NCBI GenBank assembly: GCA_011033025.1
Contig: WFMF01000625.1
Location: 23,683 to 87,682, forward strand
Length of the DNA: 64,000 nucleotides
Origin: Beroe forskalii
Taxonomy: Eukaryota; Ctenophora; Nuda; Beroida; Beroidae
Reading direction: 5' to 3'
Both the position numbers and the translations under genes were made by a program. How positions within the stretch are numbered: position 1 is the first letter of the stretch; the number at the start of each line of letters is the position of its first letter. The notes beneath the pieces are model-generated. The model made no database searches and was not told the origin of the DNA. It worked only from the letters and a program-made list of their open reading frames with translations. Positions 35,701 through 64,000 of the stretch are shown here, piece after piece.

Positions 35701-37621
35701 AAATGCAGCAATAATATTAAATAGAATTATGAAATTTAAAAATTTTATAGCTGAAATTTTTGAAAAATTTGTTTGAAAATTAATGCCACACTCACTATAG
35801 CATGTGTTATAATATAGTGAATTCAAACTCAATCAAATTCAATCATCACAGTAATTATTTGAGGAAAGGGAAAGATACACTTAAAATTTTGAGCTGGGAA
35901 ACTCAATTTGGATTTAACAAATGAATGACAATTCAAAATATTGGAGTATTTGATATATTCATAAACTTACACTTTTTAACATTCCTATGCATATGTTGAC
36001 ACTTCAGTAACAGTGCCAAAACGAATTCATTGTGCACATGGATATTCGACTCTCCAAGTAAGTCTTTGGCAATTCTGTTGTATTCTTCTTTACTTATCTG
36101 GTAAAATTAAGCAAAATGTTATCTATACTAAATTGAAATGATTTGAAAATGAATTTGATAACACAGAAAAATATATAATGTAATTTTTTCCAATAGATAT
36201 AAATCAGAGAAGCTTTATGATTGTGTTGATGGACAATCATGAAGACTATTAACAAAGTTTTTATATCTATAGTAACAGTACATATTGATATTCCATGTCT
36301 GTTAGAAAATGAAACTAAAGCATTCTGAACTGAAACTAGAATTTGCATATGAACACAAATTTCCCAAATTTTACAGCACAATAATTGTGTAAGCTCAAAA
36401 TTCAGTTTGAATGTATTTTTGTGCATGGTATAATAGGTTTGTGTGATGTACAGACTGCAGACACATAAATTATGTGTCTATACAGTATACAGTGCATACT
36501 TACACTGTGCACACAAGCAGAAGATGTGTAAAGTGCAGTTCAAACTGCCTCTGTTACCATAATATATTTTCATCAATTCATTTTAACTTTTTAAGGAGGT
36601 TCTTCAAAGAATAAAGATTTTGAACACAATGAAATGATAAACTTTAGATTCCTATGACTCATTGAAGAGTGTCAAATCATGGTGATCAAACAAAACACCC
36701 TCTGGACATAAAACCTTCAGACAACACACTCCTGGACATAACACCTCCCAGAAAAACACCCCAACCAACAGAAGGCCAATGTCACACTACCCAACCTCCA
36801 TACAAAGTGTGAGTGAGCCCAAGGCAAAGTGAGCCAGGATGTCCCACACAGCATCCTGCCTTGCCAAGTGAGCTGCATTTGCTCAATTATTTGCTTTTGT
36901 AGTGTCAGGGTTAGTTAGGGTTTGGTTAGGGTTATTTTAGTGTCTCAATCTTTTGAGGCACAGCATATTACAGGAAACATGCTCCTTCATGCGAGCACAA
37001 TGTATTATATCAAAACTGTGCTAAGCTGGTTGCCAGAAATACATGGACCAACAACATTAAAAAGGAAAATTATGTAATAACAGCAGGTTAAAAAAGCATG
37101 CATAGAAGTGGATGAAAACATCCAAAAGAAACACAGTAGTGAACTAGTGACAGAAAGTTAGAAGCACTTCAGAGCACAAAAACTAAACAAAAAGGTGCTA
37201 AAGTGGTTACTCGAAATGTATGGCTCAACATAGCTCTTTTTCAAATAATGCAGAAAAATGCACTCGGACATGACATAATATGCTCTGCCCAAAAAGGTTG
37301 AGACACCTGGGTTATGGTAGGGGTTATGGTATAGAGCTGGGTTAGGGTTAGAGTAAGGTTTTGTCTGGGGATGCTTTGTCCAGGGGGTGTTTTGTCAGGG
37401 AACCCTAATACTTACTATCCCTCTTCTATATTGTTATTCAGTTCAGTTCAGTTAGAAATTTGTAACATATTGACATAGAGTATGATCACTAGATTATGAA
37501 TATCATCACTTACTTGATTTTTATACCATAATCTGGTTGTTTTCCAATATAACTGATTGTTTGAACCCAGAATATTTTCAAGATTTTCTTTTGGTTGAAC
37601 CAAACTAATATCTGATGCCAT
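20756..37621 (-). CDS. TADA1: TADA1, SAGA-complex adaptor subunit (long, intron-rich; one internal exon not found)
   Basis: Histone-fold adaptor of the SAGA acetyltransferase coactivator. Exons: 37514-37621 (MASDISLVQPKEN; LYWKTTRLWYKNQ), 35971-36097 (ISKEEYNRIAKDLLGE; HVHNEFVLALLLKCQ), 28388-28620 (VLPDDENITSRCLTGAWEEN; LDVVSAEVVPLLRIALQ), 23898-23940, 23626-23728 (ITVTHLIQ), 20756-20941 (ALHKLQSKKISLMNIERAQC, ending with a stop). Exons 1-2-3 join in phase and follow the human order (KQKISKEEF; HSHNDFLLAIL; the AYEHGLDNV...VENHL block; the EAL...NIERI block near the C-terminus). An exon matching the R-R-K-A-Y region should lie between 28388 and 23940 but was not found, and the frame from exon 3 into 23940 needs it. 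A candidate acceptor at about 24495 gives no open continuation. The introns hold MAN2A, a LINE ORF1 and several repeats. Confidence 0.8.
21099..23516. mobile_element. element or fold-back unit with ~155-bp GGCGCC-rich inverted ends, in a TADA1 intron
   Basis: The segment 21099-21252 recurs inverted at 23361-23516 with few differences (AACACGTTTCTGAGATAATG outermost; CGCCACTGTGGCGCCGGCGC internal). 21240-21310 is a dense run of GGCGCC palindromes. The 2.1 kb between the arms includes a SINE-like copy (21623-22045) and no coding frame. Confidence 0.6.
21623..22045 (-). repeat. SINE-like dispersed repeat, copy 1
   Basis: About 420 bp, nearly identical to 33829-34243 in the same orientation. The plus-strand left edge carries tandem GTCTTA units, so on the minus strand the element would end in a short tandem tail, as many non-LTR-mobilised SINEs do. 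No protein. Orientation inferred from that tail. Confidence 0.6.
25405..26256 (+). CDS. LINE ORF1-like protein (intact frame) in a TADA1 intron
   Basis: The frame is open from 25354, but the ATG at 25405 (MALQLTELLRF) is the likely start, giving 283 residues. Order: N-terminal acidic region, a long coiled-coil segment (about residues 85-155), then a segment of the type seen in LINE ORF1 proteins: RSRNLMMFGVPE, HRVGVQKEGASRPVKVTLSS, VFISKDLTIEERNARKKLVLELK. Such proteins bind their own RNA for retrotransposition. No reverse transcriptase follows within the next 4 kb, so it is either a truncated insertion or a solitary or domesticated ORF1. It is antisense to TADA1. Confidence 0.7.
   Translation: MALQLTELLRFSTEDANDLIEGEMETTLRKVKEHTKCTDWRKVNSAVLTKLTKAQLVECLNEAVIAVGLGQESLEDAVADYGGLLENQVRLQARVINRNEELLKCKNEQLEAIQSTVKSELESYSEVTKKGLEERAITAQQVKMAVKTAVKEDDRSRNLMMFGVPETAAEDLETKAAEVFEQLEEKPKVIECHRVGVQKEGASRPVKVTLSSSDTVGRILSKSRQLRTTDRFSHVFISKDLTIEERNARKKLVLELKQKRENEPGLYHFIRNGALFSRLHAGS
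26257..28387. other. TADA1 intron sequence without a recognised gene
   Basis: AT-rich, several short frames without domains. It may include the 3' flank of the ORF1 element. No repeat copy shared with the rest of the window was noticed. Confidence 0.4.
28621..30177. other. TADA1 intron upstream of MAN2A
   Basis: No coding features. It should contain the promoter of the plus-strand mannosidase gene; no specific element is identified. Confidence 0.35.
30178..33656 (+). CDS. MAN2A: alpha-mannosidase II (GH38, MAN2A family), with two apparent frameshifts
   Basis: Golgi type II membrane glycosidase that trims mannose residues during complex N-glycan formation. Exon 1 (about 30178-30265) encodes a signal anchor (RRYLVTVMFIIFVLVYCHAV); exon 2 starts at 30432 after TTTGTTTCAG. 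GH38 landmarks: HSHCDPGW (zinc His/Asp), WAIDPFGLSPTM (zinc and nucleophile Asp), LSLFQHHDGITGT (fourth zinc ligand), later beta domains to about 33656. The frame changes near 31473 (a CCC run) and again at about 32045-32065; each is a +1 shift and flanking protein on both sides fits the family. No splice signals explain either. It lies antisense within TADA1 intron 2. It could be a broken gene, a decaying retrocopy-like locus or an assembly-error case; the 5' intron argues against a simple retrocopy. Confidence 0.85.
33829..34243 (-). repeat. SINE-like dispersed repeat, copy 2
   Basis: Same sequence and orientation as 21623-22045, including the plus-strand GTCTTAGTCTTAGTAAAA edge. A few substitutions and one short deletion (near 34108) separate the copies. 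It lies just downstream of MAN2A, inside TADA1 intron 2. Confidence 0.65.
35047..35265. repeat. dispersed repeat, copy 2
   Basis: Second copy of the 598-813 repeat, same orientation, with single-base differences. In TADA1 intron 2. Confidence 0.75.
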
Positions 37622-37907
37622 GCTCTCAAATTTGAAACTTATTATGATAATTTTATGATGATTTTAAAACCTTGCAAATGAAGAATGAAGTCGCATGTAA
37701 CTAATCAACAAATTAATTTTGATTAATTAAGTGTGTGGCAAACATTATTACAGTGGCTGTCAGCATTTGTTCTAGGCAGCTTCATGTAACACATTTGATC
37801 ACATACTTGGTTTTGACCAGTTGATAGATTAATGAATCTGATGCACATCTAATTTTAAGCTGAAAGCACAAATAACTCTAACAAAATGTCATCAAACTTT
37901 ATAAAAT

Positions 37908-38032
37908 AGATAGACACGCACCTATCGGGTCCATGTTGGGATACTGCCCGAGGGTGGTATCCGGTTTTGGCCCGAGCCTGTAGGGCAAGGGTCTAAACCA
38001 ATATGGACCCGATCAGGCAAGTATCTATATAT
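37908..38032. repeat. short hairpin repeat (MITE-like)
   Basis: About 125 bp whose ends are imperfect inverted copies around ATCGGGTCCAT ... ATGGACCCGAT. The inverted-duplication partner is at 58789-58910. No coding potential. Confidence 0.55.
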
Positions 38033-38611
38033 TATAGACCCGCATGAAAACTGCAGAGGGTTCTATAAAGGGGTAAAAATCTCCGAAGAGAGTCAAATAT
38101 TATAAAATACAGGTTGAGAAAGCACCCAACATTTGTAATGAGAGGTGTATCACAATTACAATGATTAAGAAACAAAGATGACTGTATTTGTTCTACAAAG
38201 AAGATAATATAATCTGAAGTCAAAATATTTCTAACAGTCTGATGAATATCAATACATAAAAACAACATATATGAATGCCATCTTATATATAAAGTAAAGT
38301 CACACGTGAATAATGTTTGTATGTGCTGCTGTACATATAAACGATAATAATAATAATAATAATAACAGGGTAATGGTATTTAACCATCACAATTAACATA
38401 AACAATATATAAATAACAATGGTAACTTTCTTACACACCATTTAACTCAGGTGCCCATTAAACATAATTGAAAAATCATTCATAAATATTTAATAAATAA
38501 AATAAGGTGAAGTTTATAAGCTCATTTTTATAAAATGAATTGTGTTACTTAATAATGAAATTATCATACTTATTCTATACTTATTGAATGTCACCAGGAG
38601 CTAGTTTTTAC

Positions 38612-40085
38612 CAGGGCTGTAATTCTCAATTTTGAGTTGGGGGGCTGGGCGAGCAAAGCGAGCCCAGGGTACGGGGTCCAGGGGCAGAGCCCCTGGCCGG
38701 GGGTTAATTTTTGGGGTTTTCAATGTCTGAGGGGGGGAGTTTCACTGTCCCAATTGTCCCTGTCCCAATTTACTCTTTCTTGAGTTTGGGACTGGTTTTT
38801 GGGACAATTGGGACAACTGGGACATTTGGGACAATTGGGACAAACAAAAAGTTGGACAAATCAGTCATCAATGTTTTTCTATCATACTACTATGCTAATA
38901 AGTACAAGTTTTGGTTGTGTGCTACTATGTAACAAGTTGTAAGACAAAAACACTAAACTCCCACTCAAAAACACAATCATTTGAGCTCCAGTTGCCTCTG
39001 TCACTTTTGTCCCAATTGTCCCAAATGTCCCATTTGTCCCAAATGTCCCATTTGTCCCAGTCCGTATTCACTTTTTTGAGTCCCATTTGTTCCATTTTCT
39101 CTGTCCCATTTGTCCCAAATGTCCCAATTGTCCCAGTCCGAATTCACTTTTTTGAGTCCCATTTGTTCCATTTTCTCTGTCCCATTTGTCCCAATTGTCC
39201 CATTTGTCCCAAATGTCCCATTTGTCCCAATTGTCCCTGTCCCAATCCACTTTTTCTTGAGTTTGGGACCAGGGCCGTAATTCCCGGGGGGGGGGCTAGG
39301 GGGGCTGAAGCCCCCCCAAGATTTTTGAACTGACTCAAAAAAAATTCTAACTCCCTATTAGAATTTCCAACTTAACTGATCTTTACAGTTTACTCATTAA
39401 ATAGGGAATGATATTGATGCATCATTCGCAATTGTGAAGGTTTCAACATCATATCAACACTTCATGTAGGCTAGTTTGTAGGTTCATCATGGTATTTTTT
39501 ATCTACAAACCACAGTACAGAAGTGCTGTAATCAATCAATGTCTCCATAGTAAGTAGGCAAAAATAATAATAATAAAGAAAGGAATAAATAAATATCGTG
39601 CTCAAATCATGCTCATAACATGCTCATGTAAACATGTTCATAGATTTATGCAAGTGACATACTGGAATGAATAAAAAAGATTTAATGATGTTCATAATAA
39701 ACGCCTAAAAACCAGCAAGTGCTCTGGGCTAAGAATGGGTCATCAGTTGGGCAAGGGTGATTATGAGGCACAATATGTTCTGCACATGGTTTTTTAACAT
39801 GAAAACTTGCTCAAGACTTGTCAAAGTACCATTGTATACGACTCATAATTTTCACAATTCTTACCCATTTCTGTAGCCCAAAATTCATTCTCAGACATTG
39901 AAAAACCCAAAAATTTTCCGGGGGGCTCCACCCCCCTAACCCCCGGCCAGGGGCTCTGCCCCTGGACCCCTCTGCCCCTGGACCCCGCTGCCCCCAGACC
40001 CCTGCCTCCGGGAGGCTCCGCCCCTGGACCCCATTCCCTGGGCTCGCCCAGCCCCCCCAACTCAAAATTGAGAATTACGGCCCTG
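38612..40085. mobile_element. TIR element(s) with CAGGGCYGTAATTC ends, left arm
   Basis: CAGGGCTGTAATTCTCAATT at 38612 is inverted at the right end, 40085. A related end, CAGGGCCGTAATTCCCGGGG, starts at 39270, and its best partner lies at 53095 beyond the copia insertion. hAT-type elements often begin CAGGG, but no transposase is present, so the class is inferred. The inverted copies are at 55524-56955 and 56149-58215. Confidence 0.55.
39000..39246. repeat. GTCCCAAWTG minisatellite, left arm
   Basis: Runs of TTGTCCC, AATGTCCC and ATTTGTCCC units of 9-10 bp. The inverted partner is at about 57618-57835. Long frames across it (for example 38911-39333) are repeat artefacts. Confidence 0.85.
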
Positions 40086-40221
40086 TTTGGGACAATTGGG
40101 ACAGTGACACCCCCCCCCCCTCTGAGAATGAATTTTTTGGGCTACAGAAATGGGTAAGAACCGTGAAAAACATCCTTGAAATGATTATTGATTGATTTAT
40201 AACATTTACTACTTTGTCTTA

Positions 40222-40363
40222 TAATGCTTTATATGATATTTAAATATATTCCTTTCCAGGGAATGTCATAAGTTATACTCTGTTTGTTGGGGTTTTGGTT
40301 CTATACCTTTTTCAATACACTACCACTGTGTTTTATTGGTCCACCATCAAAACTAAAATATCA
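40222..40363 (+). repeat. 5' LTR of the copia element (3' 142 bp only)
   Basis: 142 bp identical by eye to the end of the 3' LTR (52422-52563), from TAATGCTTTATATG to AAAATATCA. The first ~53 bp of the LTR are not recognisable; 40171-40221 is different sequence. It is followed at once by TGGTAGCAGAGAATG, a primer-binding site of the initiator-tRNA-Met type. Confidence 0.8.
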
Positions 40364-41239
40364 TGGTAGCAGAGAATGATAAAAGCAGTGAATCAGAAGC
40401 AGGGAATTCTGCAAGTGGTAGTGGTAGTAATGAAGAAAGCGATGTTAAAGGAAGTGTGAACACCAAAGCCCCAGCCTACAGAGAAGGTCAGAACTATGAG
40501 GATTGGAGACTTGACATTGATCTCTGGAATGAATTCACAACATTGAAGAGGAATAAGAGAGCAACAGCATTGTTATTACAGCTTCCAGAGGGGACTGTTA
40601 AAAACCATGTGAGGGCACTTGGAAAGACTGTTTTGACATCAAATGATGGTCTTGAAAAGGTGATTGAAAAACTTGATAGCATTTATAAAGAAGACATTTC
40701 CCATAGTGCATATCGTGTGTATTGTAAATTCGAAAAATATGAGCGTCCCTCAGACATGAACCTGAAAGCATATCTTTCAAATTTTCAGAAGCTGTATGAT
40801 GAGCTACTTAAGTATGATATGAAACTGCCTGAAGAGGTACTTGCATACAGATTGCTGAATAGTGCTAATCTCTCAAGTGAAAAAAAAAAAGTTGATTTAG
40901 CTTTAGCTACAGTGAAGCAATTAACTTATGTAGAAATGGCAGCAACATTGGGTAAAATTTTCGCAGTTCAGATCAACAAATCAGGTTTAGATCAAGTCAA
41001 TAGTGAAACATTGGAGATTAAGTCTGAACCAGAAGAATGTCACCTAGCTTCTCACAAAAGACCATATAGAGGAAACAGTTCTGGATCATATGGGCCTATC
41101 AGATCACAAAGTAGCAAACAGTATCATCAACCATATAACCGAGGAAGGGGCAGCCCAAGTCAAAGTAGAAATTCCCCAAGAGGAGGAAGAGGAAGCCCTT
41201 ACTCAAGAAGCCCAAGTTCAAGTGATGGTGCCAAATTCA
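40363..41239 (+). pseudogene. copia gag, 5' part, interrupted by a Merlin transposon
   Basis: Capsid-region polyprotein of a Ty1/copia retrotransposon: GQNYEDWRLDIDLWNEFTTL, YKEDISHSAYRVYCKFEKYE, then a Ser/Arg-rich stretch. The start codon overlaps the last base of the LTR, so the primer-binding site itself is translated. The frame is cut at 41240 by the Merlin element. On the far side, the CCHC zinc knuckle (CFNCHQVGHFKAEC, from 48379) continues in the same frame. The insertion plus its 8-bp duplication is 7,137 bp, a multiple of three. Confidence 0.85.
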
Positions 41240-42709
41240 GGCAGTATTAACGAAGACCGACCGGGATAAGTGGAACCTTGTCGGAACTTAGTCGGAACCT
41301 AATCGGAACTTAGTCGGAACCTTGTCGGAACTTAGTCGGAACCTAGTCGGACCATAATCGGAACCTTGTCGGACCATAATCGGAACCTTGTCGGAACTTA
41401 GTCGGAACCTAATCGGACCTTACTCGGAACCAAATTAGCTCGGAACCAAATTAGCTGTAATTAGGGCAACTAATCAGATGGCAGGTCTGATTGCATCTCA
41501 AAACGTAACCTAATACCACACTGAATTTGATATAAATAGAGGGATCGAGGATGTTAAACTATCAGTTTCAATATGGGTGATGCGACCTTTTACCCCCCGA
41601 CTTTTTATCCCCCGACCTTTTACCACCCTAATGTACAGGTGCGACCTTTTAGCCCCTGTTTCGCCTTTGATCTGTACTGCATTCTGGGGGGGATAAAAAG
41701 GCGCACTTCTGCCATAGACTGCGACTTTTTATCCCCCATTGAAAATGAGCTCGGAATGAAGCAGGGGGATAAAAAGTCGTAGATAACAATAGAGCTGCGA
41801 CCTTTTATCCCCGTTCAAGCTACGATGGGGATAAACATTAAACAGTCGTACCTAACTGCAGAACTGCGACCTTTTACCCCCTTGGATCACATTTCAAAGA
41901 AGAACTCACATGATACTGTCTCGTTCGAGCAATGGTGTCAGGTACCAAGGATCGTACCATGAACCTTGATACGATTGGACTTCCACATCAAGCAGCTGGA
42001 ATTACTTCCTAAGTACACCTACCTCTGACTTCAAGGTGCGGGTGAAGAAGCTTGCTGCTCTTCCCTCTCTCGGATTTGGTGCTGACTGCTGGTCAACGAG
42101 ACTCGTAGTACGAGTGCCTGTCTACTTCTTTCCTTCCTTCCTGACGAGCTCCACATCCTCTTCTTTGAATTACCTTGGATCAGACTCTCAGTGGCTGGCC
42201 TGTGGATGGCTCCTACTACGGGCCCCGTATATTTCTACCCTCTCGTGATGTGGTATGTCTACAACAGAGATGCTCAGGGATCCACCAGGAGGCAGTCTTG
42301 AACTATTCCGACACGACCGGCTGATTGACTAGCCGGCCGGCTAGCCGGTTGGCTCACCGGCTAGCCGGCCGGCCAGCCGGTGAGCCAACCGGCTAGCCGG
42401 CCGGCTAGTCAATCAGCCGGTCGGCTAGCCACCCGGCTTGCCAGTTAGCCGGCCGGCTAGCCGGTCGGTTAGCCGGTCGGCTAGCCGGTGAGCCAACCGG
42501 CTAGCCGACCGGCCAGCCGGTTAGCCGGCCGGCTAACCCCTTCTCCAACACCCCTTTGCCTTCCTTCTCCAAACCTTCGTTTGCTTTTCTTCTCGGGCGA
42601 AATATCCAAAATCAGCGTATCCAAATTTTCAGGACTGCCTCTCAATCGGTGTATTAGTGGGTTAACGTATTCTCGCGGTATACCTACGTATCTCGCGTCA
42701 TGTAATGCC
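41240..42709. repeat. Merlin left terminal inverted repeat
   Basis: Blocks in order: GTCGGAACCTTGTCGGAACT subrepeats (41277-41450), the GCGACCTTTTACCCCC block (41579-41710 and 41780-41880), a unique stretch (about 41888-42285), the CCGGCTAG array (42318-42535), and a 165-bp inner segment ending TGTAATGCC. Each homologous block reappears inverted on the right side in mirrored order. Confidence 0.8.
42318..42535. repeat. CCGGCTAG palindrome array, left
   Basis: Dense overlapping copies of GCCGGCCGGCTAGCCGG-type words, each self-complementary in part. The counterpart is at 47111-47375. It should form many alternative hairpins. Confidence 0.9.
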
Positions 42710-42893
42710 TCGTTTCAATTTGAGATTTATTATATTTTATGTATCAATAGCAATTTTCGTTTCAATTTATGATAAGAAACAAGTTCTAGAAAAATAAGAT
42801 CTAGTATCTTGAAGGAACTAATAGGAACTAATATCTTGAAAATTATAACATATAACAGCCCAACATAACATGAAATGTAACAACCCAAAATAT

Positions 42894-43801
42894 TCAGTTG
42901 CCGTAAACATCCTTCAGGCAGTCCAAGGCAGCAGTCCAAGTGTTTTGAATCTGAGCAGTTCCGCTGGTTCCATTGATGCGTTTCCTCCACATGTAGTCGA
43001 TGAGGGAGTCTGTTATGTACTTGTTGCCGTTCACGTGTTTCTTGCAGTGAGTCCAGAGCCCTCCATAGTGTTGATGTGAACTCCGGTGATGGGGTTGACG
43101 TACTGGATGCTGTGGTTCACAACGAAGTGGTAGTAGCCCCTCCTCGGTAGACTGTTGTACCCACTCCAGCCGTCTGTCATTACGATGGAACCTGGTTCCG
43201 GACGAAGTTCACGATGATAGGGATGAGGGTAGCAGCACTGCGACTGTTGCCAGGAAGAGCCCATGAATCTGTCGGACCTTCCGCGTTCGAGCATCCCAAG
43301 CACCCAGTTGCCATCCCGCCATGATCCTCGGTTGTTCTTCCGCTTCCCATATTAACTCTCGTCCACCTCCACCACCACACCATGTCCGCCGAGCACCACA
43401 GGGTTCTTATACAGGTACTCCGCCAAGCAGGTTAGTAGCTTGCCCACCCACACCGACACAGAGTGCTCTGACAGTCCCGTGTACTCCCATAATGTTGACG
43501 TTGGTGTTGTTCTTGTTGGAGAAGGCGTGGAGGAGCCAGATGAACTGCGTGAAGGTTATGTTCCGCTGATCCAGGATGGAGTTGTGTCTGATTGAGCGGT
43601 ATACTCCACAGCTAGGGCATCTCCAGCAGGAACCATCTCTGTAGCGGGTTGCAGAACAGGAAGTCCACGTCATCTGGGCGTTGCAGTTGGTACCCGACAG
43701 AGGGAGGAAGAAGGGATCACACCTCTGTTTCTGCAGAAGATCTGGATGTCTGCTTCACTGGAGGTTAGTAGCTGTAGAACAGATGAGTTGAAACAAGCCA
43801 T
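42894..43801 (-). pseudogene. Merlin transposase pseudogene (ISXO2-like DDE family)
   Basis: Starts MACFNSSVLQLLT at 43801. Pieces in family order but several frames: a zinc-like CWRCPSCGVYRSIRHNSIL, FTQFIWLLHAFSNK, VVLGGHGVVVEVDES (first catalytic Asp), RKNNRGS, RSAATLIPIIVNFV, IVMTDGWSGYNSLPR (second Asp), FVVNHSIQYVNPITGVHINT (conserved NHS...G.H block), and a C-terminal YITDSLIDYMWRKRIN ending at a stop near 42894. Frameshifts and in-frame stops (for example just after VDES) make it inactive. Confidence 0.85.
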
Positions 43802-44275
43802 GATGAACTGATGATAAATGGTCAGAAAGTCCTCTATTTAAGGGTACAAATATCCTATTCGTCTTGAAGCGACGTGACCATGCAATAACAGGGTAGGAGA
43901 CGATCTATGAAGCATTGCATTCAATGTAGTCCTAATCAGTCCGTGTCACATGAGATACGTAAGTGACCGATGTTACTATTCTGTTGGAAGTATTTTCACC
44001 CTGCAGTCATATTCACGTAACACACGTAAGTGAATGCGATCACAAGTAGGAGAGCGATGTTCTTATCTTGATAAGGCATTACATGACGCGAGATACGTAG
44101 GTATACCGCGAGAATCTGAATACGTTAACCCACTAATGTACCGATTGAGAGGCAGTCCTGAAAATTTGGATACGCTGATTTCAAATATTTTGCTCATAAT
44201 ACTGTCAGATGCCCGAGAAGGAAGGCAAACGAAGGTTTGGAGAAGGAAGGCAAAGGGGTGTTGGAGTATGGGTTA

Positions 44276-47100
44276 TTGTATTTGTATTGTATTGTAGGTT
44301 CCCCAAACTCGGAAGTAAGGGGGACAGTACCCTTAAGGGCACTGCCAGCACTGGGGCCACGGGACACCACTTATAGCGACGGCAAGTTGCCACTGGTACC
44401 CACTGGGTGCTCTGGCTTTATTGGGAACAGCATTTCAGTGACATTGGCTTGGTGAACTTCACTGAGCAATGGGGGTCCGGGTGTTAGGCCAGACAAGCCG
44501 CCTTTACTGCTGCACACTACAGTTTGAGTCAACTATATCTCTGTCCAAAGCACAGAAAAATAGATTTACTCTCTGTCCACATTGCCATGGGTCGGTCAAA
44601 AAGTCATAAAGGTAAGTGTAGTTTGAAGGCGTGAGCTAGTTGCCTTCGGTAACATAAGTGTATTTAAAAAGTGGTAATGGATTTCATTTTGAGTGGTGAT
44701 TATCAAAATGTCAGGACCCTCCTGCTCTCCTTCCATTATTTTCTTGAATCAGCTGGTGTATCGTCGTCTTTTATTATTATTACCTTGTGTAGGTGAGCTT
44801 CTACGTTTGTTAGTTTTGTGAGATAGTGTTCTGTTGGGGGAAAGGCTTCTTTTTGTTATTTGTGGCTTTCTTTCAAAAATATTGGTGTTGTTGAAAAATT
44901 TTATCATTTTGTTGATTAGATGACTACTTTGCAGATCGTCAATGCTATCAAATTGGTATTTGTTGAATATTTCTTTTCTTTATAGCTGAAATAAGAGCAT
45001 TTACACAGTATATGATGCGCTGTTTCTAGGCAGTTCTCTTCCAGTTGTAGTCAACGTATTTCATTACTTCTGTACAGTATTCACAGTGTTCATTTTAACT
45101 CTGTTTTGTTTTTGTCATGTGATAGTTTAGTTTGTTATGATTGGATAATATTTTAATTAAAGTACTTATTTTCTCATAGTTTAGTGTTAAGATTTTGTTT
45201 GTCATTTTATTTGTCCTGTATTTATAAGCTTTAACTAAAACCAGATGTAAGTATCTTAGCCTCACAGCTTATATCACTATATATAAATCTGTTTTCTATT
45301 GATCTATGGTAGTGTTTGTTAATGATATTAATAAATGTTGTGAATGGTGCTTTATTATATAGCGGATTTGATACTTGTTTTAGGGAACCTTTCTTAGCAA
45401 GGTAGTCAGCTATTTCATTTCCTTCATGACCTTCGTGGCCAGGTATCCAGTTGAGATTGACTGTGTTATTTCCTCCCAGCTCATTAAGTGAGTTATGGCA
45501 CATTTTATTAATTCATTTTTTGTATGTTTGTTCATTAGAGACTTAAGTACTGCTTGTGAATCTGAGTAGAATTCGATATTTAAATTACTTAAGTTTTGTT
45601 TCATATGATTTCTTAGCTTTCCATATGGCAATTGCTTCTGCTTGGTAAATGCTGGTGTGTGTTGGGAGTGGTTCTGCTACCTCATTTATTTCTTCTTCAC
45701 TGAATGTTATACCGATTCCTGTGTTGCCTTTTTCATTTTTTGACCCATCTGTGAAGATTAGAAGGTTTGATTCACATTCTTTCACTTGTATACTGTCCCT
45801 GTTTTCAATGTTGATTTTGTTTGTTTTGTTTAAGATTGAGAAAGGACTAATTTTGTCTGAAATTGGGTTTGGGTCAATTTTTATCACATTTTTTAATTTC
45901 CAATCAATTATTTCTTGTGTTGATTGTATTTTTTCATTTTTATAGTTATTCATGTTCCAGTGTCTTTCAGTCTTGAGAGTTAATGCTCTTTGTAAAGCTG
46001 TTTCTTCTAATTTTAACTCAATTGATGCCATATTAAGGAGTAAATTTAGGAGTACTTTGGGAGTGCTAGTTTTACACCTTGTTATCATATGTTGTGCCAT
46101 AGTTTGTATACCTAGGAGTTATTTTAGCTATTTGTGATTTCGTTAGGTTCATTGCCCAAACAAAGAAACAATAGATCCATAACTTATAATCGGTATGATG
46201 ATTGTCTTGTATATCCAGAGCATTTGTTGTGGAGATATTCCCCATTTGCTACCTATTGCCCTTTTTGTGGCAAAAAGAGCCTTTTTATTCTTTTTGACTA
46301 CATTCTCGATGTGATCATTCCATTTTAGTTTATTATCAATTGTTACTCCTAAGTATTTTACTGTTTTTGATATCTCAATTTTGTGACCATCAAGTTTGAT
46401 TGATTTTGGGTGTTTATTTTCCCTGGTTGTAGACCAGAAAATTACTTTTTGTTTTAAGTGTGCTGATTTCTAGTGAGTTTTGGTTACACCATTTCATTAT
46501 TTTCTCAACCATGTTTTTGTGTTTATTTTTATTCCATATATATCTTTCCCAGTACTGAGTAGACTGACATCATCTGCAAATGCTTGTATATTGTCACTGT
46601 ATTATATAATCAAATTTTTTAAGCTATAATGGTCCATAGAGGATTGCACAGATTCAATTAATTCTATGTTTTTTGAGAAGTGAAATTTAAAATTTTTGGC
46701 AGAGCTTCCGCCAGAGGGCAAAGAAGCCCTACTTCAAACTGCTGAACAAAATTCCCCAATATCACTTGATTTTAGTGTGACAGATTGGGACCTCACTGGT
46801 AGATCTGGAGGATTTTTTAGTTCTCATCCGGCTAAAAGCACAAAGAACTATTGACTGTAAGAGGAAAGACTAATGGCTGATACAGCGCTAGTCTGTTAGG
46901 TTGTACATTGTTCTTATACTCCAAGAGCATAAGAAAGTTGGCAGCCTACTTGTTGCTTCTTAGTCTTAACGCACCATCGCTGTAGTATTAGCAAGCTAAT
47001 CTACAGACTACGGCCTCGGGAGCAGCAACGAAGCTCCGTTCCAGGGAATCTCACCGATGTTCTGATTTAACGGTATGGTGCCCGAATCATCAGAACCTGG
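44276..47100 (-). mobile_element. RNase H-bearing LINE inserted in the Merlin right arm
   Basis: Flanked by TGGAGTATGGGTTA at 44262-44275 and 47101-47114, a 14-bp target-site duplication. The minus-strand 3' end is a short AATAC-type tail next to 44276. It contains the C-terminal reverse transcriptase and RNase H region and is truncated at the 5' end. The pre-insertion sequence matches the inverted Merlin left arm exactly in layout. The plus strand of 46690-46855 has an unexplained open stretch (LAELPPEGKEALLQTAEQ). Confidence 0.8.
45231..46640 (-). pseudogene. LINE ORF2 remnant: RT C-terminal part and RNase H
   Basis: Read on the minus strand: FADDVSLLSTGKD (RT catalytic box), VKYLGVTIDNKLKWNDHIEN, WIYKTIIIPIISYGS, then RNase H with LLIFTDGSKNEKGNTGIGIT, IYQAEAIAIWKAKK, EFYSDSQAVLKSLMN and LNWIPGHEGHEGNEIADYLA. 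Several frameshifts and stops between blocks. The RT-plus-RNase H order fits the I/R1/Jockey group of non-LTR elements; the clade is not determined. Confidence 0.85.
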
Positions 47101-47110
47101 TGGAGTATGG

Positions 47111-51300: not shown

Positions 51301-52091
51301 AACTGGGTTATATTCATCAAATGAATAAGCTCCATATCACACATGAAAGGATCAATCATAATAGTATTCAAATCAATGATGAGGAAAAGTCACAGCTTAG
51401 ATCTCTTGGGGGACAAATGTTGTGGGTAACCACACAAACTCGTCCTGATGCTTCTTATGGGACATGTATTGCTACAAACTCCTATGGCACTGGAACCATC
51501 AAGGAGCTCAAGCTGGCAAATAAAACCATAAAATTCATGCAACAGAACCCCATGATTGTCAAATTCCCTTGTCTTATCCTGAAAGATTGTGCTATTATAG
51601 TATTCAGTGATGCATCCTTTGCCAACTTATCAGATGGGATGTCACAAGGTGCCTATATTGTATTCATTGCTGACAAGTTGGGATGTTGTTGCCCATTGTC
51701 GTGGCAAAGCCGTAAAATAAAAAAGGCATGCAAAAGCACTCTTGCAGCAGAAAGTTGGGCTCTAATAGAAGGACTTGACTCTGCTGACCTCATAGTATCC
51801 CAACTGAAAGAGCTGTTATTAGTATCACTGAAAATATTCTGTTGCACTGATTGCAAATCATTGTTTGATGCAGTGAGAACATCCAATACACTTGAGGATA
51901 AAGGACTGCGAATACCTATGGCAATACTACGCCAAAGGTTCTCTCAAAATGAAGTGATGTTCAAATGGGTTCCTGCAAATCTTCAGATTGCGGATTGCAT
52001 GACAAAAGCTGGAGCCTCATCAATGCTTATGCGAAATGTGCTGTCAAAAGGAAAATTGTGTCAAGAACTATTATCAGTATTGTGGAAATAA
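48369..52091 (+). pseudogene. copia gag 3' end and pol (protease, integrase, RT, RNase H)
   Basis: One frame to 49500: CCHC knuckle, protease with DSGCTKTVV, integrase zinc domain (HRQFAHAP ... CENCETCDRYKKP), first integrase Asp (AMDLKTISGG). A one-base deletion between about 49370 and 49470 moves the frame; it continues 49470-52091 with ADNGGEFAN, NGMVERHHRILTE, an acidic linker, RT (WVITKKDN, KARLVALGYQE, DVQSAFLQGK, SIHVDDIIFGGN) and RNase H (FSDASFANLS, LAAESWALIEGLD, CCTDCKSLFDAV, LQIADCMTK). The order integrase-RT-RNase H is diagnostic for Ty1/copia. Confidence 0.92.
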
Positions 52092-52368
52092 TTTATTGCA
52101 ATATTGACAAGTGTAATAACCAATGATATTATGATATAAGATTGAATTGTTATGTAATACCACACCAGTTTATAAAAGAAATAAAGATAACCAGATTGAT
52201 TAATACCTATTTATTTATCTTACTTATATACATATATTGTGTGTTTTAATAAGAGTGGATGAATTTTATAATTTGTATGTTCAAATAGAACATATTTTAA
52301 AATTTGTCTGAATTTCATAATCTTGTTGAATTTGAAGATTATAATATTTTTAGAAGACAGAGGGAGAT

Positions 52369-52563
52369 TGTTAACAGCCATAGTGTAACACAACATTCTC
52401 AAATTTGATTGTAATTAGTAGTAATGCTTTATATGATATTTAAATATATTCCTTTCCAGGGAATGTCATAAGTTATACTCTGTTTGTTGGGGTTTTGGTT
52501 CTATACCTTTTTCAATACACTACCACTGTGTTTTATTGGTCCACCATCAAAACTAAAATATCA
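52369..52563 (+). repeat. 3' LTR of the copia element
   Basis: 195 bp, TGTTAACAGCC ... AAAATATCA, preceded by the purine tract AGACAGAGGGAGA. Its last 142 bp are identical by eye to 40222-40363. Directly after it, duplicated-arm sequence (GTATACAATGGTAC) resumes. Confidence 0.85.
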
Positions 52564-53240
52564 GTATACAATGGTACTTTGACAAGTTTTGAGCAAGTTT
52601 TCATGTTAAAAAACCATGTGCAAAACATATTGTACCTCATAATCACCCTTGCCCAACTGATGACCCATTGTTAGCCCAGAGCACTTGCTGGTTTTTAGGC
52701 GTTTAAAATTATTATGAACATTGAATCTTTTTTATTCATTCCAGTATGTCACTTGCATAAATCTATGAGCATGTTATGAGTATGATATTTAGTTATTCCT
52801 TTCTTTATTATTATTATTTTGCCTACTAACTATGGAGACATGGATTGATTACAGCACTTGGTTTGTAAGTTTGTAGATAAAATACCATGATGAACCTACA
52901 AAATAACCTAATGGTAGTTGATATGATGTTTTAAACCTTCACAATTGCAGATGATGCATCAATATCATTCCTATTTAATAGGCAAACTGTAAAGATCAGT
53001 AAGTTGGAAATTTGAATAGGGAGTTAGATTTTTTTGAAATCGTTCAAAAATCTTGGGGGCTTCAGCCCCTCTAGCCCCCCGGGAATTTATTCCTGGTTTT
53101 ATAAGTAATCAAAACTTCAGGCTTCAGTGCTTTCAGATTTCAATATTGATTGTAAATCTTGGGTAATTTAATCATTTAAATTAGAAACATGACAAATCAT
53201 AACCCAAGATTTACAATCAATACATTGAAATCTCGACGGA
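52564..53240. repeat. inner continuation of the left arm
   Basis: Matches the reverse complement of 55360-56055, which shows that the copia element landed inside the left arm. It ends with a CCGGGAATT... TIR end at 53095 and a damaged copy of the hairpin described at 55360-55473 (part of one arm missing near 53166). Confidence 0.8.
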
Positions 53241-55359
53241 CGTTGCCCAGTCTATTTCTTCTGACTGGATGGCTATCAAGGTTGCAAAGTGACGTCCAAA
53301 TGTGGAACGTTGCGCCGGGCGCGAGGGTAGGTTGTCTGACGTCGTCAGACCCATTATTTAAAATTTTAGGCAACGCCTGACAAAGGGTAGGGTAACATCC
53401 TACGAATTGAAATCTGAAAAGAGCACTGAAGCCTGAAGTTTTGATTACTTAGTAAAAACTAGCTCTTGGTGACATTCAATAAGTATAGAATAAGTATGAT
53501 AATTCTATTATCAAGTAACACAATTCATTTTATAAAAATGAGCTTATAAACTTCATGACTCACATGATTCTCTAAAACTTCTGGCAATAGGATGTTGCTT
53601 AACACAAATACCCTGTTTCCGTTGTGCAATGTGCGGCGTTTCCTATGCGGTCTACGGTGGCCGAGCAGGCTCACTTTTTTTCACATAAAAAATTTTTCAT
53701 AAAAAATTTTTTTATATTTCACTTGAAAATTTTTATATAAAAATTTTTGATCCTCTTTGTCCAACCCCGTGGCCGAGGAGGATCACTTTTTTACTAAAAA
53801 TTTTCAGAAAAAAAAACATGAAAAATTTTTTAGGCTCACTTTTTTGTATGGCCTCTTCGTCCATGCCCGTGGCCGAGGCTCACTCCAGGGCATCACTTTT
53901 TCAATAAAAACTCGCGTGCGCGCTCAAATCCCGCGCTGAAATGCTGCTAAGAGAACAATCGCGTGTTCCATAATTTACGAAATTCATGCACATTTGATGA
54001 ATAAGCGGCAAAAATGGCGTCATTATGACATTTTAATATGGTTGATGACGCACAACAGCCTACTAATATGGGGCATAGCAGAATCGACACGCTCCCACGC
54101 GTACGAATTCGACTACGGACAGGGTCCGGTCACCATATTCGTATAATTCAAAGTTTTCACATTTATTCGTCTTTATCAGAAACTCAACCAGGAGAGCGGA
54201 CCGGTACTGATAGCCCCATTTCATACCTAGCTATCCAGGTGTCCCGACATAACAAATTAAATCAATATTCGAGGTCTATGGCGACCGATACTTCAATACT
54301 TCAGTTAAATATATGGCGACCGTTGGAGTTCTTCATTAAATTCTTAAGATACGTGAGTCGTGACTCGTAAGTATTAATATTCTCACTGAGGCATTTTGAA
54401 AGAACGTATTACAATAACATTCTGTAATTTTCCTTGACAAAACAAGCTTTGTCAGGGTCCCTAGTGAGCAGGATTGTCCCCTGTCGTTCTACATGCACAG
54501 CAGCAAATCATACTGGTCCTGTCATTTGCTTCATCCCACCTCAATAGCCCATACTATGTCGATCAGTTTATCAAATGCTCAGCATCATCACTACTTCACG
54601 GTTCACCCTCATTAACATTCGGAGCTAGTGTGTGATATTTCAATAAACACGGCCTTCCGCCTTTGTTCATGTTGTAAACTATATTTGAAAATTCCTTGAA
54701 ATAACGGTCAAGTAATCTCTACTTCGATCAACTTCAAGCAAATATCGGTCAAGTACACCCTACTTCGATCTATATCTCGCGGAACTGCAGCAGAATCTTG
54801 CGCGCGCGGATATAAGCGCGCGCGTAGAATCCGCGGATGGTCACGCCATACCGCGCCTTCCATACAAGTATGGCCGATACAAATCGTCAACGCTCCAGGG
54901 GTTCCCGGGGTCCAATTTCAAAAAACCGGATATCCTCGGTCTTGTCTCACCGAGATCTATCGCTCAAGGGTTGAGCACCAAAAATTTAATTTTTTTGGTG
55001 CACCCTAGCGCCGCGCTTCCTTTCGCAGGATTGATGAGGTTTCAGCAAATGCTTCATGATCTAACCAGATGCTTTTGCGCGCGCGGCCTCCGGGTATTCT
55101 GAGGAGGAACGACGGCGCGCAGGATAGGGCACTGGTTAGTGCAAATGTAACCTATTTCAAGTTCAAAGTTTGTCAGGCGTTGCCTGACCCCTCGCGCGCG
55201 CGAAGCGCGCGCGCCACGACTCGCAGAGTTTAAAATTTGAAATAATGTCATAATGGGTTTGACGACGTCAGACAATTTCAAGTTGATGATGGAAAATAAA
55301 TTTTGTCTTTTTGAAAAATCCATTTCTAATTTGCTTTTTTAGAATTTTTGCTGATTTCA
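53241..55359. other. centre of the inverted duplication, no gene found
   Basis: 53340-53390 (GACGTCGTCAGAC ... CAACGCCTGACAAA) recurs inverted and altered at about 55170-55275. 53450-53560 is another copy of arm sequence found at 58210-58320. 53640-53890 has imperfect GTGGCCGAGG / CTCACTTTTTT repeats. 54790-54830, 55075-55090 and 55190-55215 are alternating GCGCGC runs. Open frames here are short and unsupported. Confidence 0.5.
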
Positions 55360-55473
55360 TTTCAATGTATTGATTGTAAATCTTGGGTTATGATTTGTCA
55401 TGTTTCTAATTTAAATGATTAAATTAGAAACATGACAAATCATAACCCAAGATTTACAATCAATACATTGAAA
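55360..55473. repeat. 114-nt perfect hairpin
   Basis: Two 55-bp arms, exact reverse complements as far as I can read, separated by the 4-nt loop ATGA (55415-55418). The left arm begins TTTCAATGTATTGATTG. A partly deleted copy with the complementary loop TCAT lies at about 53143-53238. Confidence 0.9.
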
Positions 55474-57014
55474 TCTGAAAAGAGCACTGAAGCCTGAAGT
55501 TTTGATTACTTAGTAAAAACCAGGGCCGTAATTCCCGGGGGGCTAGGGGGGCTGAAGCCCCCCAAGATTTTTGAACTGACTCAAAAAAAATCTAACTCCC
55601 TATTCAAATTTCCAACTTTACTGATCTTTACAGTTTACTCATTAAATAGGGAATGATATTGATGCATCATTCGCAATTGTGAAGGTTTAAACATCATATC
55701 AACACTTCATGTAGGCTAGTTTGTAGGTTCATCATGGTATTTTATCTACAAACTTACAAACCAAGTGCTGTAATCAATCCATGTCTCCATAGTTAGTAGG
55801 CAAAATAATAATAATAAAGAAAGGAATAACTAAATATCATACTCATAACATGCTCATAGATTTATGCAAGTGACATACTGGAATGAATGAAAAAGATTCA
55901 ATGTTCATAATAATTTTAAACGCCTAAAAACCAGCAAGTGCTCTGGGCTAACAATGGGTCATCAGTTGGGCAAGGGTGATTATGAGGTACAATATGTTTT
56001 GCACATGGTTTTTTAACATGAAAACTTGCTCAAAACTTGTCAAAGTACCATTGTATACGACTCAATTTTTCACGGTTCTTACCCATTTCTGTAGCCCAAA
56101 ATTCATTCTCAGAGGGGGGGGGGGTGTCACTGTCCCAATTGTCCCAAACAGGGCCGTAATTCTCAATTTTGAGTTGGGGGGGCTGGGCGAGCCCAGGGAA
56201 TGGGGTCCAGGGGCGGAGCCTCCCGGAGGCAGGGGTCTGGGGGGCAGCGGGGTCCAGGGGCAGAGGGGTCAAGGGGCAGAGCCCCTGGCCAGGGGTTAGG
56301 GGGGTGGAGCCCCCCGGAAAATTTTTGGGTTTTTCAATGTCTGAGAATGAATTTTGGGCTACAGAAATGGGTAAGAATTGTGAAAATTATGAGTCATGAC
56401 ACAATGGTACTTTTGACAAGTCTTGAGCAAGTTTCATGTTAAAAACCATGTGCAGAACATATTATGCCTCATAATCACCCTTACCCAACTGATGACCCAT
56501 TCTTAGCCCAGAGCACTTGCTGGTTTTTAGGCGTTTATTATGAACATCATTAAATTTTTTTTATTCATTCCAGTATGTCACTTGCATAAATCTATGAACA
56601 TGTTTACATGAGCATGTTATGAGCATGATTTGAGCACGATATTTATTTATTCCTTTTCTTTATTATTATTATTTTGCCTACTTACTATGGAGACATTGAT
56701 TGATTACAGCACTTCTGTACTGTGGTTTGTAGATAAAAATACCATGATGAACCTACAAACTAGCCTACATGAAGTGTTGATATGATGTTGAAACCTTCAC
56801 AATTGCGAATGATGCATCAATATCATTCCCCATTTAATGCGTAAACTGTAAAGATCACTGAAGTTGGAAATTCTATTAGGGAGTTAGAATTTTTTTGAGT
56901 CAGTTCAAAAATCTTGGGGGGGGCTTCAGCCCCCCTAGCCCCCCCGGGAATTACGGCCATGGTCCCAAACTCAAGAAAAAAGTGGATTGGGACAGGGACA
57001 ATTGGGACAAATGG

Positions 57015-57620
57015 GGCCAACCCCATAAACCCCGGTGGATATCGAAAAATGGCAAATGGGGTTTAATTTTGGGGGTTTATGGGGGTTTATGGGGCTTAAT
57101 TTAGTTAAATTTTGATGTTTTATGACTGATTATGTTCACGATTTTTGGCATTTTTTACGGAATGGTACCATTTTTTGTTGACGATTTTGGCCTTTTTTGA
57201 AATGGTACCATTTTTTGTTGATGAATTTCGGCCCTTCTCTGAAATGGTACCATTTTTTCAGCGATTTTCAAGCCTTTTTGAAATGGTACCATTTTCTGTT
57301 GCGCATTTTCGAACCTTTCCTAAAATGGTACCATTTTCGGCCATTTTTTGAAATGGTACCATTTTTTGTTGACAATTTTAGACCCTTTTTTGAAATTGTA
57401 CCATTTTTTGTTGACGATTTTCAAGCCTTTTCTGAAATGGTACCATTTTTTGTTGACGATTTTTGGCCCTATTTTGAAATGGTACCAATTTTCATTGAAG
57501 ATTTTCGACCTTTTTCTGGAAAATTAAACCCCCATAAACCCCCAAGTGGATATCGAAAAAGGCAAATGGGGGTTAAATTTTTGGGGGTTTACGGGGGTTT
57601 ATGGGGGTTGGCCCCCCCCC
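57015..57620. mobile_element. small TIR element filled with a palindromic GGTACC array
   Basis: Ends GGCCAACCCCATAAACCCC and the inverse GGGGTTTATGGGGGTTGGCC. Between them are nine units of about 41 bp (GGTACC at 57164, 57204, 57246, 57285, 57327, 57355, a variant at about 57396, 57439, 57481), most carrying the 14-bp palindrome AAATGGTACCATTT. Present only in the right arm. Confidence 0.75.
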
Positions 57621-57835
57621 CAAATGGGACATTTGGGACAAATGGGACAATTGGGACAAATGGGACAGAGAAAATGGAACAAATGGGACTCAAAAAAGTG
57701 AATTCGGACTGGGAAAATTGGGACATTTGGGACAAATGGGACAGAGAAAATGGAACAAATGGGACTCAAAAAAGTGAATACGGACTGGGACAAATGGGAC
57801 ATTTGGGACAATTGGGACAAAAGTGACAGAGGCAA
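57618..57835. repeat. GGGACAAATT minisatellite, right arm
   Basis: Inverted partner of 39000-39246, units GGGACAAAT / GGGACATTT. Long apparent frames here are artefacts of the repeat. Confidence 0.85.
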
Positions 57836-58788
57836 CTGGAGCTCAAATGATTGTGTTTTTGAGTGGGAGTTTAGTGTTTTTGTCTTACAACTTGTTACAT
57901 AGTAGCACACAACCAAAACTTGTACTTATTAGCATAGTAGTATGATAGAAAAACATTGATGACTGATTTGTCCAACTTTTTGTTTGTCCCAATTGTCCCA
58001 AATGTCCCAGTTGTCCCAATTGTCCCAAAAACCAGTCCCAAACTCAAGAAAGAGTAAATTGGGACAGGGACAATTGGGACAGTGAAACTCCCCCCCTCAG
58101 ACATTGAAAACCCCAAAAATTAACCCCCGGCCAGGGGCTCTGCCCCTGGACCCCGTACCCTGGGCTCGCTTTGCTCGCCCAGCCCCCCAACTCAAAATTG
58201 AGAATTACAGCCCTGGTAAAAACTAGCTCCTGGTGACATTCAATAAGTATAGAATAAGTATGATAATTTCATTATTAAGTAACACAATTCATTTTATAAA
58301 AATGAGCTTATAAACTTCACCTTATTTTATTTATTAAATATTTATGAATGATTTTTCAATTATGTTTAATGGGCACCTGAGTTAAATGGTGTGTAAGAAA
58401 GTTACCATTGTTATTTATATATTGTTTATGTTAATTGTGATGGTTAAATACCATTACCTGTTATTATTATTATTATTATCGTTTATATGTACAGCAGCAC
58501 ATACAAACATTATTCACGTGTGACTTTACTTTATATATAAGATGGCATTCATATATGTTGTTTTTATGTATTGATATTCATCAGACTGTTAGAAATATTT
58601 TGACTTCAGATTATATTATCTTCTTTGTAGAACAAATACAGTCATCTTTGTTTCTTAATCATTGTAATTGTGATACACCTCTCATTACAAATGTTGGGTG
58701 CTTTCTCAACCTGTATTTTATAATATTTGACTCTCTTCGAGATTTTACCCTTTATAGAACCTCTGCAGTTTTCATGCGGGTCTATAAT

Positions 58789-58910
58789 ATATAGATACTT
58801 GCCTGATCGGGTCCATATTGGTTTAGACCCTTGCCCTACAGGCTCGGGCCAAACCGGATACCACCCTCGGGCAGTATCCCAACATGGACCCGATAGGTGC
58901 GTGTCTATCT
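58789..58910. repeat. short hairpin repeat, right-arm copy
   Basis: Inverted copy of 37908-38032 with minor changes. Confidence 0.55.
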
Positions 58911-59192
58911 ATTTTATAAAGTTTGATGACATTTTGTTAGAGTTATTTGTGCTTTCAGCTTAAAATTAGATGTGCATCAGATTCATTAATCTATCAACTG
59001 GTCAAAACCAAGTATGTGATCAAATGTGTTACATGAAGCTGCCTAGAACAAATGCTGACAGCCACTGTAATAATGTTTGCCACACTTAATTAATCAAAAT
59101 TAATTTGTTGATTAGTTACATGACTTCATTCTTCATTTGCAAGGTTTTAAAATCATCATAAAATTATCATAATAAGTTTTATTTTGCAGAGC

Positions 59193-59301
59193 ATGGCATC
59201 AGATATTAGTTTGGTTCAACCAAAAGAAAATTTTGAAAATATTCTGGGTTCAAACAATCAGTTATATTGGAAAACAACCAGATTATGGTATAAAAAATCA
59301 A
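59193..59301 (+). pseudogene. TADA1: duplicated TADA1 exon 1
   Basis: Reads MASDISLVQPKENFENILGS ... LWYKKS with a GTAAGT donor at 59302. It has one extra A in the A-run before the donor compared with 37514-37621, which puts the donor out of phase with TADA1 exon 2, and one changed codon (Phe for Leu at residue 14). Directly before the ATG it has TTTTATTTTGCAG-AGC, an acceptor-like tract that the intact left copy lacks. No exon 2 copy exists on this side, as the arm ends within intron 1. Confidence 0.85.
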
Positions 59302-60620
59302 GTAAGTGATGATATTCATAACTAGTGATCATACCTATGTCAATATGTTACAAATTTAACTGAACTGAACTGAATAACAATATAGAAGAGGATAGTAAGT
59401 ATTAGGTTCCCTGACAAAACACCCCTGGACAAAGCATCCCCAGACAAAACCTTACTCTAACCCTAACCCAGCTCTATACCATAACCCCTACCACTATAAC
59501 CCAGGTGTCTCAACCTTTTGGGCAGAGCATATTATGTCATGTCCAAGTGCATTTTTCTGCATTATGAAAAAAGAGCTATGTTGAGCCATACATTTCGAGT
59601 AACCACTTTAGCACCTTTTTGTTTAGTTTTTGTGCTCTGAAGTGCTTCTAACTTTCTGTCACTAGTTCACTACTGTGTTTCTTTTGGATGTTTTCATCCA
59701 CTTCTATGCATGCTTTTTTAACCTGCTGTTATTACATAATTTTCCTTTTAATGTTGTTGGTCCATGTATTTCTGGCAACCAGCTTAGCACAGTTTTGATA
59801 TAATACATTGTGCTGCATGAAGGAGCATAAGCCTTGTATTATGCTGTGCCTCAAAAGATTGAGACACTAAAATAACCCTAACCAAACCCTAACTAACCCT
59901 GACACTACAAAAGCAAATAATTGAGCAAATGCAGCTCACTTGGCAAGGCAGGATGCTGTGGGGACATCCTGGCTCACTTTGCCTTGGGCTCACTCACACT
60001 TTGTATGGAGGTTGGGTAGTGTGACATTGGCCTTCTGTTGGTTGGGGTGTTTTTCTGGGAGGTGTTATGTCCAGGAGTGTGTTGTCTGAAGGTTTTATGT
60101 CCAGAGGGTGTTTTGTTTGATCACCATGATTTGACACTCTTCAATGAGTCATAGGAATCTAAAGTTTATCATTTCATTGTGTTCAAAATCTTTATTCTTT
60201 GAAGAACCTCCTTCAAATGAATTGATGAAAATATATTATGGTAACAGAGGCAGTTTGAACTGCACTTTACACATCTTCTGCTTGTGTGCACAGTGTAAGT
60301 ATGCACTGTATACTGTATAGACACATAATTTATGTGTCTGCAGTCTGTACATCACACAAACCTATTATACCATGCACAAAAATACATTCAAACTGAATTT
60401 TGAGCTTACACAATTATTGTGCTGTAAAATTTGGGAAATTTGTGTTCATATGCAAATTCTAGTTTCAGTTCAGAATGCTTTAGTTTCATTTTCTAACAGA
60501 CATGGAATATCAATATGTACTGTTACTATAGATATAAAAACTTTGTTAATAGTCTTCATGATTGTCCATCAACACAATCATAAAGCTTCTCTGATTTATA
60601 TCTATTGGAAAAAATTACAT

Positions 60621-63740: not shown

Positions 63741-64000
63741 GTATCTATTTTCATGCTTCAATAACTTAGTTATTTTTAATGCTAATAAGAATCTGTCTTT
63801 TTCCACACATTTCTCATATGTTGAATTTTGTCCACATGGAAAATCTTTACAGTACTGGCCAAGATAAAGCTCAAATTTTGAGGAAATTTGAAAATTCCCC
63901 ATCTTCAAAGGGCTCATGCACCAAAATTTGTAATCTTAGACAAAAACAACTGGTTATGCAATAAAGATCACCCATTTCCCAAGTGAAAAACAACCATCGG
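63741..64000. other. right edge of the window, nothing recognised
   Basis: AT-rich sequence with short frames only. Confidence 0.4.

Follow-up and report, generated by a model that had tools for sequence, protein, structure and literature searches.

A putative inverted duplication of the TADA1 5' region, with an acceptor-like sequence before one copy of exon 1 and a spliced-leader-like tail before the other

Why does the first exon of TADA1 stand twice, in opposite orientations, close to the end of one contig, and why do the two copies differ in the ten bases directly before their starts? The locus lies in a stretch of 64,000 nucleotides of Beroe forskalii DNA (here called the window; contig C720, positions 23683-87682), which we compared with itself and with the assembly that holds it (216 Mb in 1134 contigs). 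The self-comparison, on whose best 100 rows our statements about inverted pairs rest, confirmed the mirror-image DNA that an earlier note on the window had described: 36178-40170 together with 52564-53231 recurs in inverted orientation at 60620-55359. The mirror image is made up of three pairs, 36178-39224 with 60620-57621 (97.7% identity over 3052 columns), 39217-40170 with 57015-56066 (97.0%), and 52564-53231 with 56058-55359 (92.6%), each with an E value of 0.0, and no inverted pair of near-equal length was found among these rows outside the arm structure. We favor, with moderate confidence, the reading that the arms represent a young inverted partial duplication of the 5' region of TADA1 that has been cut up by transposons, and that both presumably lie on one chromosome; what we say of mechanism and expression we infer. 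The duplication had been put at about 24 kb, a length that comprises the arms, a 12.4-kb element and a spacer; the arms themselves measure only about 5.2 kb. The parts of the structure are as follows.

36178-40168, minus strand: outer part of the left arm, with the rest of TADA1 intron 1, exon 1, upstream DNA and most of the shared, presumably hAT-like insertion
52564-53231, minus strand: inner part of the left arm, from the self-comparison
53232-55358, plus strand: spacer of 2.1 kb, a mosaic of repeat families including 53653-54457 and 54459-55007
55359-60620, plus strand: right arm, from the self-comparison
55359-55474, no strand: perfect 56-bp inverted repeat around a 4-base loop, marking the inner tip of the right arm; 53144-53231 on the left is its imperfect counterpart

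The 56-bp palindrome is specific to this locus, all four of its genome-search matches lying inside C720. The repeat families of the spacer occur in many contigs (73 matches among the best 40 of 2358 candidates). At 54440-54470 two of these families are joined at a short common stretch, beyond which the sequence continues otherwise in six copies of the first family and in seven of the other. At its outer end (60620), the right arm runs up against a long interspersed nuclear element (LINE), whose 3' tail lies there; therefore position 36178, at which the duplication had been said to split off, is the LINE site and not a demonstrated duplication breakpoint, and since the right arm halts where the LINE starts, the true extent of the duplicate is hidden.

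The exons and the short sequences before them are these.

35999-36097, minus strand: TADA1 exon 2, with a PF12767 match at 35999-36100 that is under the curated cut-off; the sole exon-2 match in the assembly
37514-37621, minus strand: coding part of the left TADA1 exon 1, in phase with exon 2
37625-37634, minus strand: CAAATTTGAG, directly before AGCATGG in the left copy and equal to the last 10 leader bases
59180-59189, plus strand: TATTTTGCAG, acceptor-like, directly before AGCATGG in the right copy
59193-59301, plus strand: coding part of the right exon 1, with one extra A in a run and a change of Leu to Phe

The right arm does contain exon 1 again, inverted and together with the DNA upstream of it, as had been claimed. 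The left exon 1 is indeed in phase with exon 2 (start 36097), and the joined peptide of the two aligns without a gap to residues 8-71 of human TADA1 (E 5.9e-15). Across the whole genome the PF12767 profile found two places, both under its cut-off: exon 2 itself, which scores 23.3 bits, and a stretch of that strand at 28385-28519, with 15 bits and an E value of 2. Judged from frame and homology, the left copy, which stays joined to exon 2, would be the working gene start. The right exon 1 had been described as decayed by an extra A. The A is present, but it is not callable as decay because one-base indels are common in the assembly; neither sequencing error nor decay is established, and decay is weakly supported. 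The firmer change is the Phe of the right exon 1, at which the left exon 1 and human TADA1 have Leu. Nor does the absence of exon 2 on the right, also part of the earlier description, follow from these data, because the right arm halts at a young LINE tail and the contig ends in other sequence. Both copies of exon 1 read outward, so that of the divergent or convergent promoters envisaged earlier the divergent arrangement stands and the convergent one is dropped. The right copy is most likely a promoter with a first-exon fragment, and its predicted transcript would enter the LINE, as had been foreseen; that element we take to be CR1-like, and its open frame matched no family in a Pfam scan.

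The two copies also differ in the sequence directly before AGCATGG, which is TTTTATTTTGCAG in the right copy and TTTCAAATTTGAG in the left. A 34-base leader ending in ATCAAATTTGAG has 774 matches in the genome with at most three mismatches (a reversed control has none), and C720 itself holds, near position 5905 of its locus L010 on the minus strand, a sequence very like the spliced leader of Hormiphora. On these counts the genome has a spliced-leader sequence of the ctenophore type. In the left copy, the 3' end of the leader lies exactly at the exon start, with agreement at 10 of 10 bases (11 if a T common to both copies is included). The five differences between left and right copies are the same five that separate the right copy from the leader, and the left copy always has the leader's base. 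Such agreement at five sites has a probability of about 1.6e-5, a figure that assumes five changes confined to those ten bases and random targets, for a leader match that was noticed after the fact.

We tentatively suggest, as a good possibility short of a probable one, that the right copy still has the TADA1 trans-splice acceptor, and that in the native, intron-bearing left copy the acceptor's last 10 bases gave way to the 3' end of the leader. This would have come about through partial gene conversion, with a TADA1 transcript that had been trans-spliced and then reverse-transcribed as donor. The acceptor of the right copy would then be the older state. Two observations weigh against this suggestion: AG follows none of the 100 listed leader tails, and short leader-tail matches also lie away from gene starts. 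Other sources of the left tract were considered and set aside. For a local template switch, 2 kb of right-arm DNA offered no match longer than 7 bases, and shuffled 10-mers average 6.9. RNA polishing as a general cause is at odds with the absence of the leader tail from the start regions (approximate starts) of RRN3, of the gene at 16288-18291 and of the ZCCHC4-like frame. If the suggestion is true, the two arms preserve the states before and after an RNA-templated rewriting of a gene start, in a genome with hundreds to thousands of leader-derived stretches, and show how spliced-leader sequence gets into a native animal gene, and leader-derived stretches in ctenophore genomes would be a readable record of reverse transcription.

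Leader sequence is widespread in this genome. An 11-base tail pattern, bounded on either side by a letter other than C, was counted 2297 times compared to 187 for its control; CTCAAATTTGAG is a palindrome, which lifts the background of tail matches. Among 100 listed tail places, 34 match the leader further upstream at no fewer than 9 of 11 bases. These 34 have an ATG within 12 bases in 23 cases (about 17% expected) and 28 distinct downstream sequences, which start with G or A at 31 sites and with GT at 8. At the 27 listed tail sites with no further leader match, an ATG follows within 12 bases in 6, near the expected 17% or so, and because of this the 11-base tail alone is no proof of a leader. 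We also read 12 leader sites, hand-picked and partly chosen for a nearby ATG: one precedes a long open frame, still open after 207 codons where the piece ends, and the other 11 showed no frame of at least 60 codons from an ATG within 80 bases. Because the downstream sequences vary widely, the copies are not one repeated leader gene; many of them look like relics, and coding retrogenes are only a possibility. At one site (L074) the leader is partly doubled, and at three others (L069, L070, L078) it starts at the same shortened point.

How far have the arms diverged? The alignment of 36178-39216 has 23 substituted columns, with 19 gaps in the right arm and 2 in the left; the middle block has 13 (gaps 7 right, 6 left) and the inner block 21 (gaps 10 left, 1 right), many of these columns being clustered or produced by adjacent gaps. 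Sorting isolated from clustered differences by eye, we counted 2 isolated substitutions and 2 clusters in 36178-38603. As a yardstick, we compared the LINE of the window with three near-identical copies in other contigs over about 1.3 kb; the four copies (that of the window first) have 4, 5, 4 and 5 private gap columns and 1, 2, 0 and 7 private substitutions. Six other copies of a repeat in intron 1 allowed differences to be polarised there: one cluster and one single base are derived in the right arm, and one base in the left. Within the hAT-like insertion, the paralogous units have derived indels numbering 7 (left-inner), 3 (right-inner), 4 (left-mid) and 7 (right-mid), with 9 ambiguous, and derived substitutions numbering 14, 1, 4 and 7 in the same order, with 14 ambiguous; the units are unevenly cut at their ends, which inflates some of these counts. 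Difference-free stretches in the outer arm were borderline (653 bases, P = 0.047) and are not used as evidence.

The arms also differ by, and share, larger insertions, which we list with the remaining features of this end of the contig.

40169-52563, plus strand: Copia-type element of 12.4 kb with nested insertions, inside the left arm; RVT_2 and a weak gag match, pol frame broken
53406-53555, plus strand: upstream arm DNA in a third copy, which lacks the hAT-like insertion; its end part is an old interspersed repeat
55521-58215, plus strand: hAT-like insertion of 2.7 kb, in both arms, with CAGGG ends and the 8-bp GTAAAAAC at 55513-55520 and 58216-58223
57016-57620, plus strand: 605-bp insertion in the right arm only, between 8-bp CAAATGGG copies at 57008-57015 and 57621-57628; the left arm has the empty site
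60620-61918, minus strand: 5'-shortened LINE whose 3' tail borders the right arm
61919-64000, no strand: end of contig C720, single copy except for 76 bases (61922-61997) in common with contig C110

The 2.7-kb insertion, which we take to be hAT-like from its features, is common to both arms and absent from the third copy, so that events can be ordered. The third copy matches at 54 of 54 bases over 53406-53459 and at 96% over 53452-53555 (104 bases). From about 53480 on it is an old interspersed repeat, found at 78-91% in other contigs, and because of this match its history is less certain than the rest. The order would be an older local copy, then the hAT-like insertion, then the inverted duplication, after which the 605-bp element (right arm), the Copia-type element (left arm) and the LINE (right outer edge, in intron 1) would have arrived; we assign no order among these three. 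The arms thus carry independent later events, the Copia-type element in the left only and the 605-bp insertion in the right only, a pattern that is compatible with alleles too.

The Copia-type element is recognised by RVT_2 (107 bits) and by a copia-type gag match of 18.9 bits that is under its cut-off (Pfam). Its right long terminal repeat (LTR) has the same end as in other copies, and its left LTR lacks the outer sequence that six other copies have in common upstream; no target duplication was seen around 40169-52563. An LTR boundary at 40222, taken from the self-comparison, was abandoned, as the repeat begins at 40169 and other copies carry further common sequence upstream. Inverted repeats (for example 42358-42550 with 47302-47098) lie in 41240-48368, between the gag and pol frames, and suggest a nested insertion of about 7 kb. 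Near the 3' LTR, a 16-base exact leader-like tail lies in antisense (52392-52407, minus strand), and the AATGTTGTGT downstream of it also trails leader tails in other contigs. The 3' tail of the LINE abuts unrelated flanks in eight other copies (L024-L031); the window copy is cut at 61918, where three of these (L024, L025 and L026) continue alike.

The main alternative to a duplication is an artefact of assembly, in which the right arm would be the other haplotype, or its fold-back chimera, wrongly joined in inverted orientation at the contig end, and in which the Copia-type, 0.6-kb, LINE and leader-tail differences would be allelic. We regard this as doubtful, if a serious contender. The position of the locus speaks for it: window base 64000 is the end of the contig, since C720 has 87,682 bases and the window is 23683-87682, so that the right arm ends 3.4 kb short of it, and false joins are likely at contig ends. 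Nowhere else does the assembly match the last 2 kb at length (a search with 61900-64000 gave one other match, the 76 bases in C110), and the LINE, with 1 private substitution in about 1.3 kb, is young and could be polymorphic. It also conceals the outer breakpoint, beyond the right arm there being LINE, other sequence and the contig end, and three large insertion differences with so few substitutions are odd for a simple duplicate; these points too count against the duplication. The ctenophore Hormiphora bears on both sides. Its single-nucleotide polymorphism (SNP) heterozygosity is given as 2%, and the substitution level in 36178-38603 is lower, which favors the duplication, though the host's own value may be another. 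Its non-coding DNA is described as indel-rich, with depressed SNP heterozygosity that the authors blame partly on read mapping (PMC8527503), and because of this pattern few SNPs with many indels, as seen here, are compatible with alleles. Yet outside the hAT-like insertion the arms are more alike than would be expected of ctenophore alleles, a fold-back of the same molecule would put equal insertions in both arms and the large insertions differ, and the third inverted piece at 53406-53555, though partly interspersed repeat, suggests a real local rearrangement. Moreover, three probes (arm DNA 36400-37400, exon 2 and an RRN3 stretch), which made up our check for second copies of the locus, gave no extra full-length copy, and with them we saw no alternative haplotype or unmerged second copy. 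The arm probe had full-length matches at two places only, both in C720 (51 of 53 matches were partial repeats, among the best 40 of 55 candidates), and the 3-kb RRN3 stretch of C720 had one full-length match and 19 other, short ones; a haplotype-merged assembly, however, would likewise show flanks once.

The small differences between the arms might instead be mostly sequencing or polishing errors, the arms being practically identical after a very recent duplication or gene conversion. This account, which is compatible with the other explanations, we consider rather unlikely. Private one-base gaps occur at a similar rate in the LINE copies of other contigs, and the frame of a neighboring MAN2-like gene is split twice with adjoining Pfam matches, both as expected of errors; the five clustered substitutions at the acceptor are of another kind, as are the insertions of 12.4 kb and 0.6 kb, and the 14 derived substitutions of the left inner unit against 1 on the right (14 ambiguous, with unit ends unevenly cut) also fit it poorly.

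If the arms are a duplication, then a recent event would have copied DNA from upstream of TADA1, together with exon 1 and no less than 1.3 kb of intron 1, head-to-head and a few kb upstream, into DNA already rich in repeats. The locus-specific 56-bp palindrome at the inner tip would be a plausible site of template switching or breakage.

The MAN2-like alpha-mannosidase gene (30370-33656, plus strand, with Glyco_hydro_38 matches) lies between TADA1 exon 2 and the weak TADA1 match at 28385-28519, and because it is flanked in this way it may be nested in a TADA1 intron; for Hormiphora, the genome paper reports hundreds of nested intronic genes (PMC8527503). Its frame shifts twice (31427-31521 and 32025-32071), with adjoining matches to Glyco_hydro_38N (2-187, then 191-270), and the changes are frameshift errors, tiny introns or real breaks. 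Elsewhere in the assembly, contig C1134 holds a fast-evolving COX1 in which TGA stands for Trp and AGA/AGG occur at conserved Arg positions, a codon use that speaks against the usual invertebrate code; no tRNA was called in 2.8 kb. Together with the Hormiphora-like leader, these traits point to a ctenophore. The COX1 DNA had no match in a plasmid collection.

How does the locus compare with known systems? Inverted head-to-head partial duplications and palindrome-associated duplications, of which a human example was reportedly described in 2025, are alike in having two similar arms, a short spacer, a palindrome at the inner tip and a partial gene. The present case departs from them in that a LINE covers one outer boundary, the locus is at a contig end and the linkage is putative. 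Inverted partial duplicates riddled with transposons are nothing unusual in structure; the possible importance lies in the pairing of acceptor and leader tail before one and the same exon. The leader here ends in AATTTGAG, in common with ctenophore leaders, whose mostly conserved ending this is according to PMC8527503, which counts 718 genomic leader copies in Hormiphora and the motif 491 times in Mnemiopsis. Its authors speak of leader loci, whereas the copies listed here precede many different sequences. Among the papers listed in our searches, judged by title and the beginning of the abstract, we found none on leader relics in ctenophores, which is no claim that none is in print. A parallel exists in the dinoflagellates, where relics of the spliced leader and leader-tagged retrogenes arise as whole transcripts re-enter the genome (PMC6050394). 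As here, leader DNA stands before a gene start, and retained introns are reported there too (PMC6050394). In contrast to that account of dinoflagellates (PMC6050394), the locus described here has only 10-11 leader bases before an intron-bearing gene at its own locus, and its inverted partner is acceptor-like.

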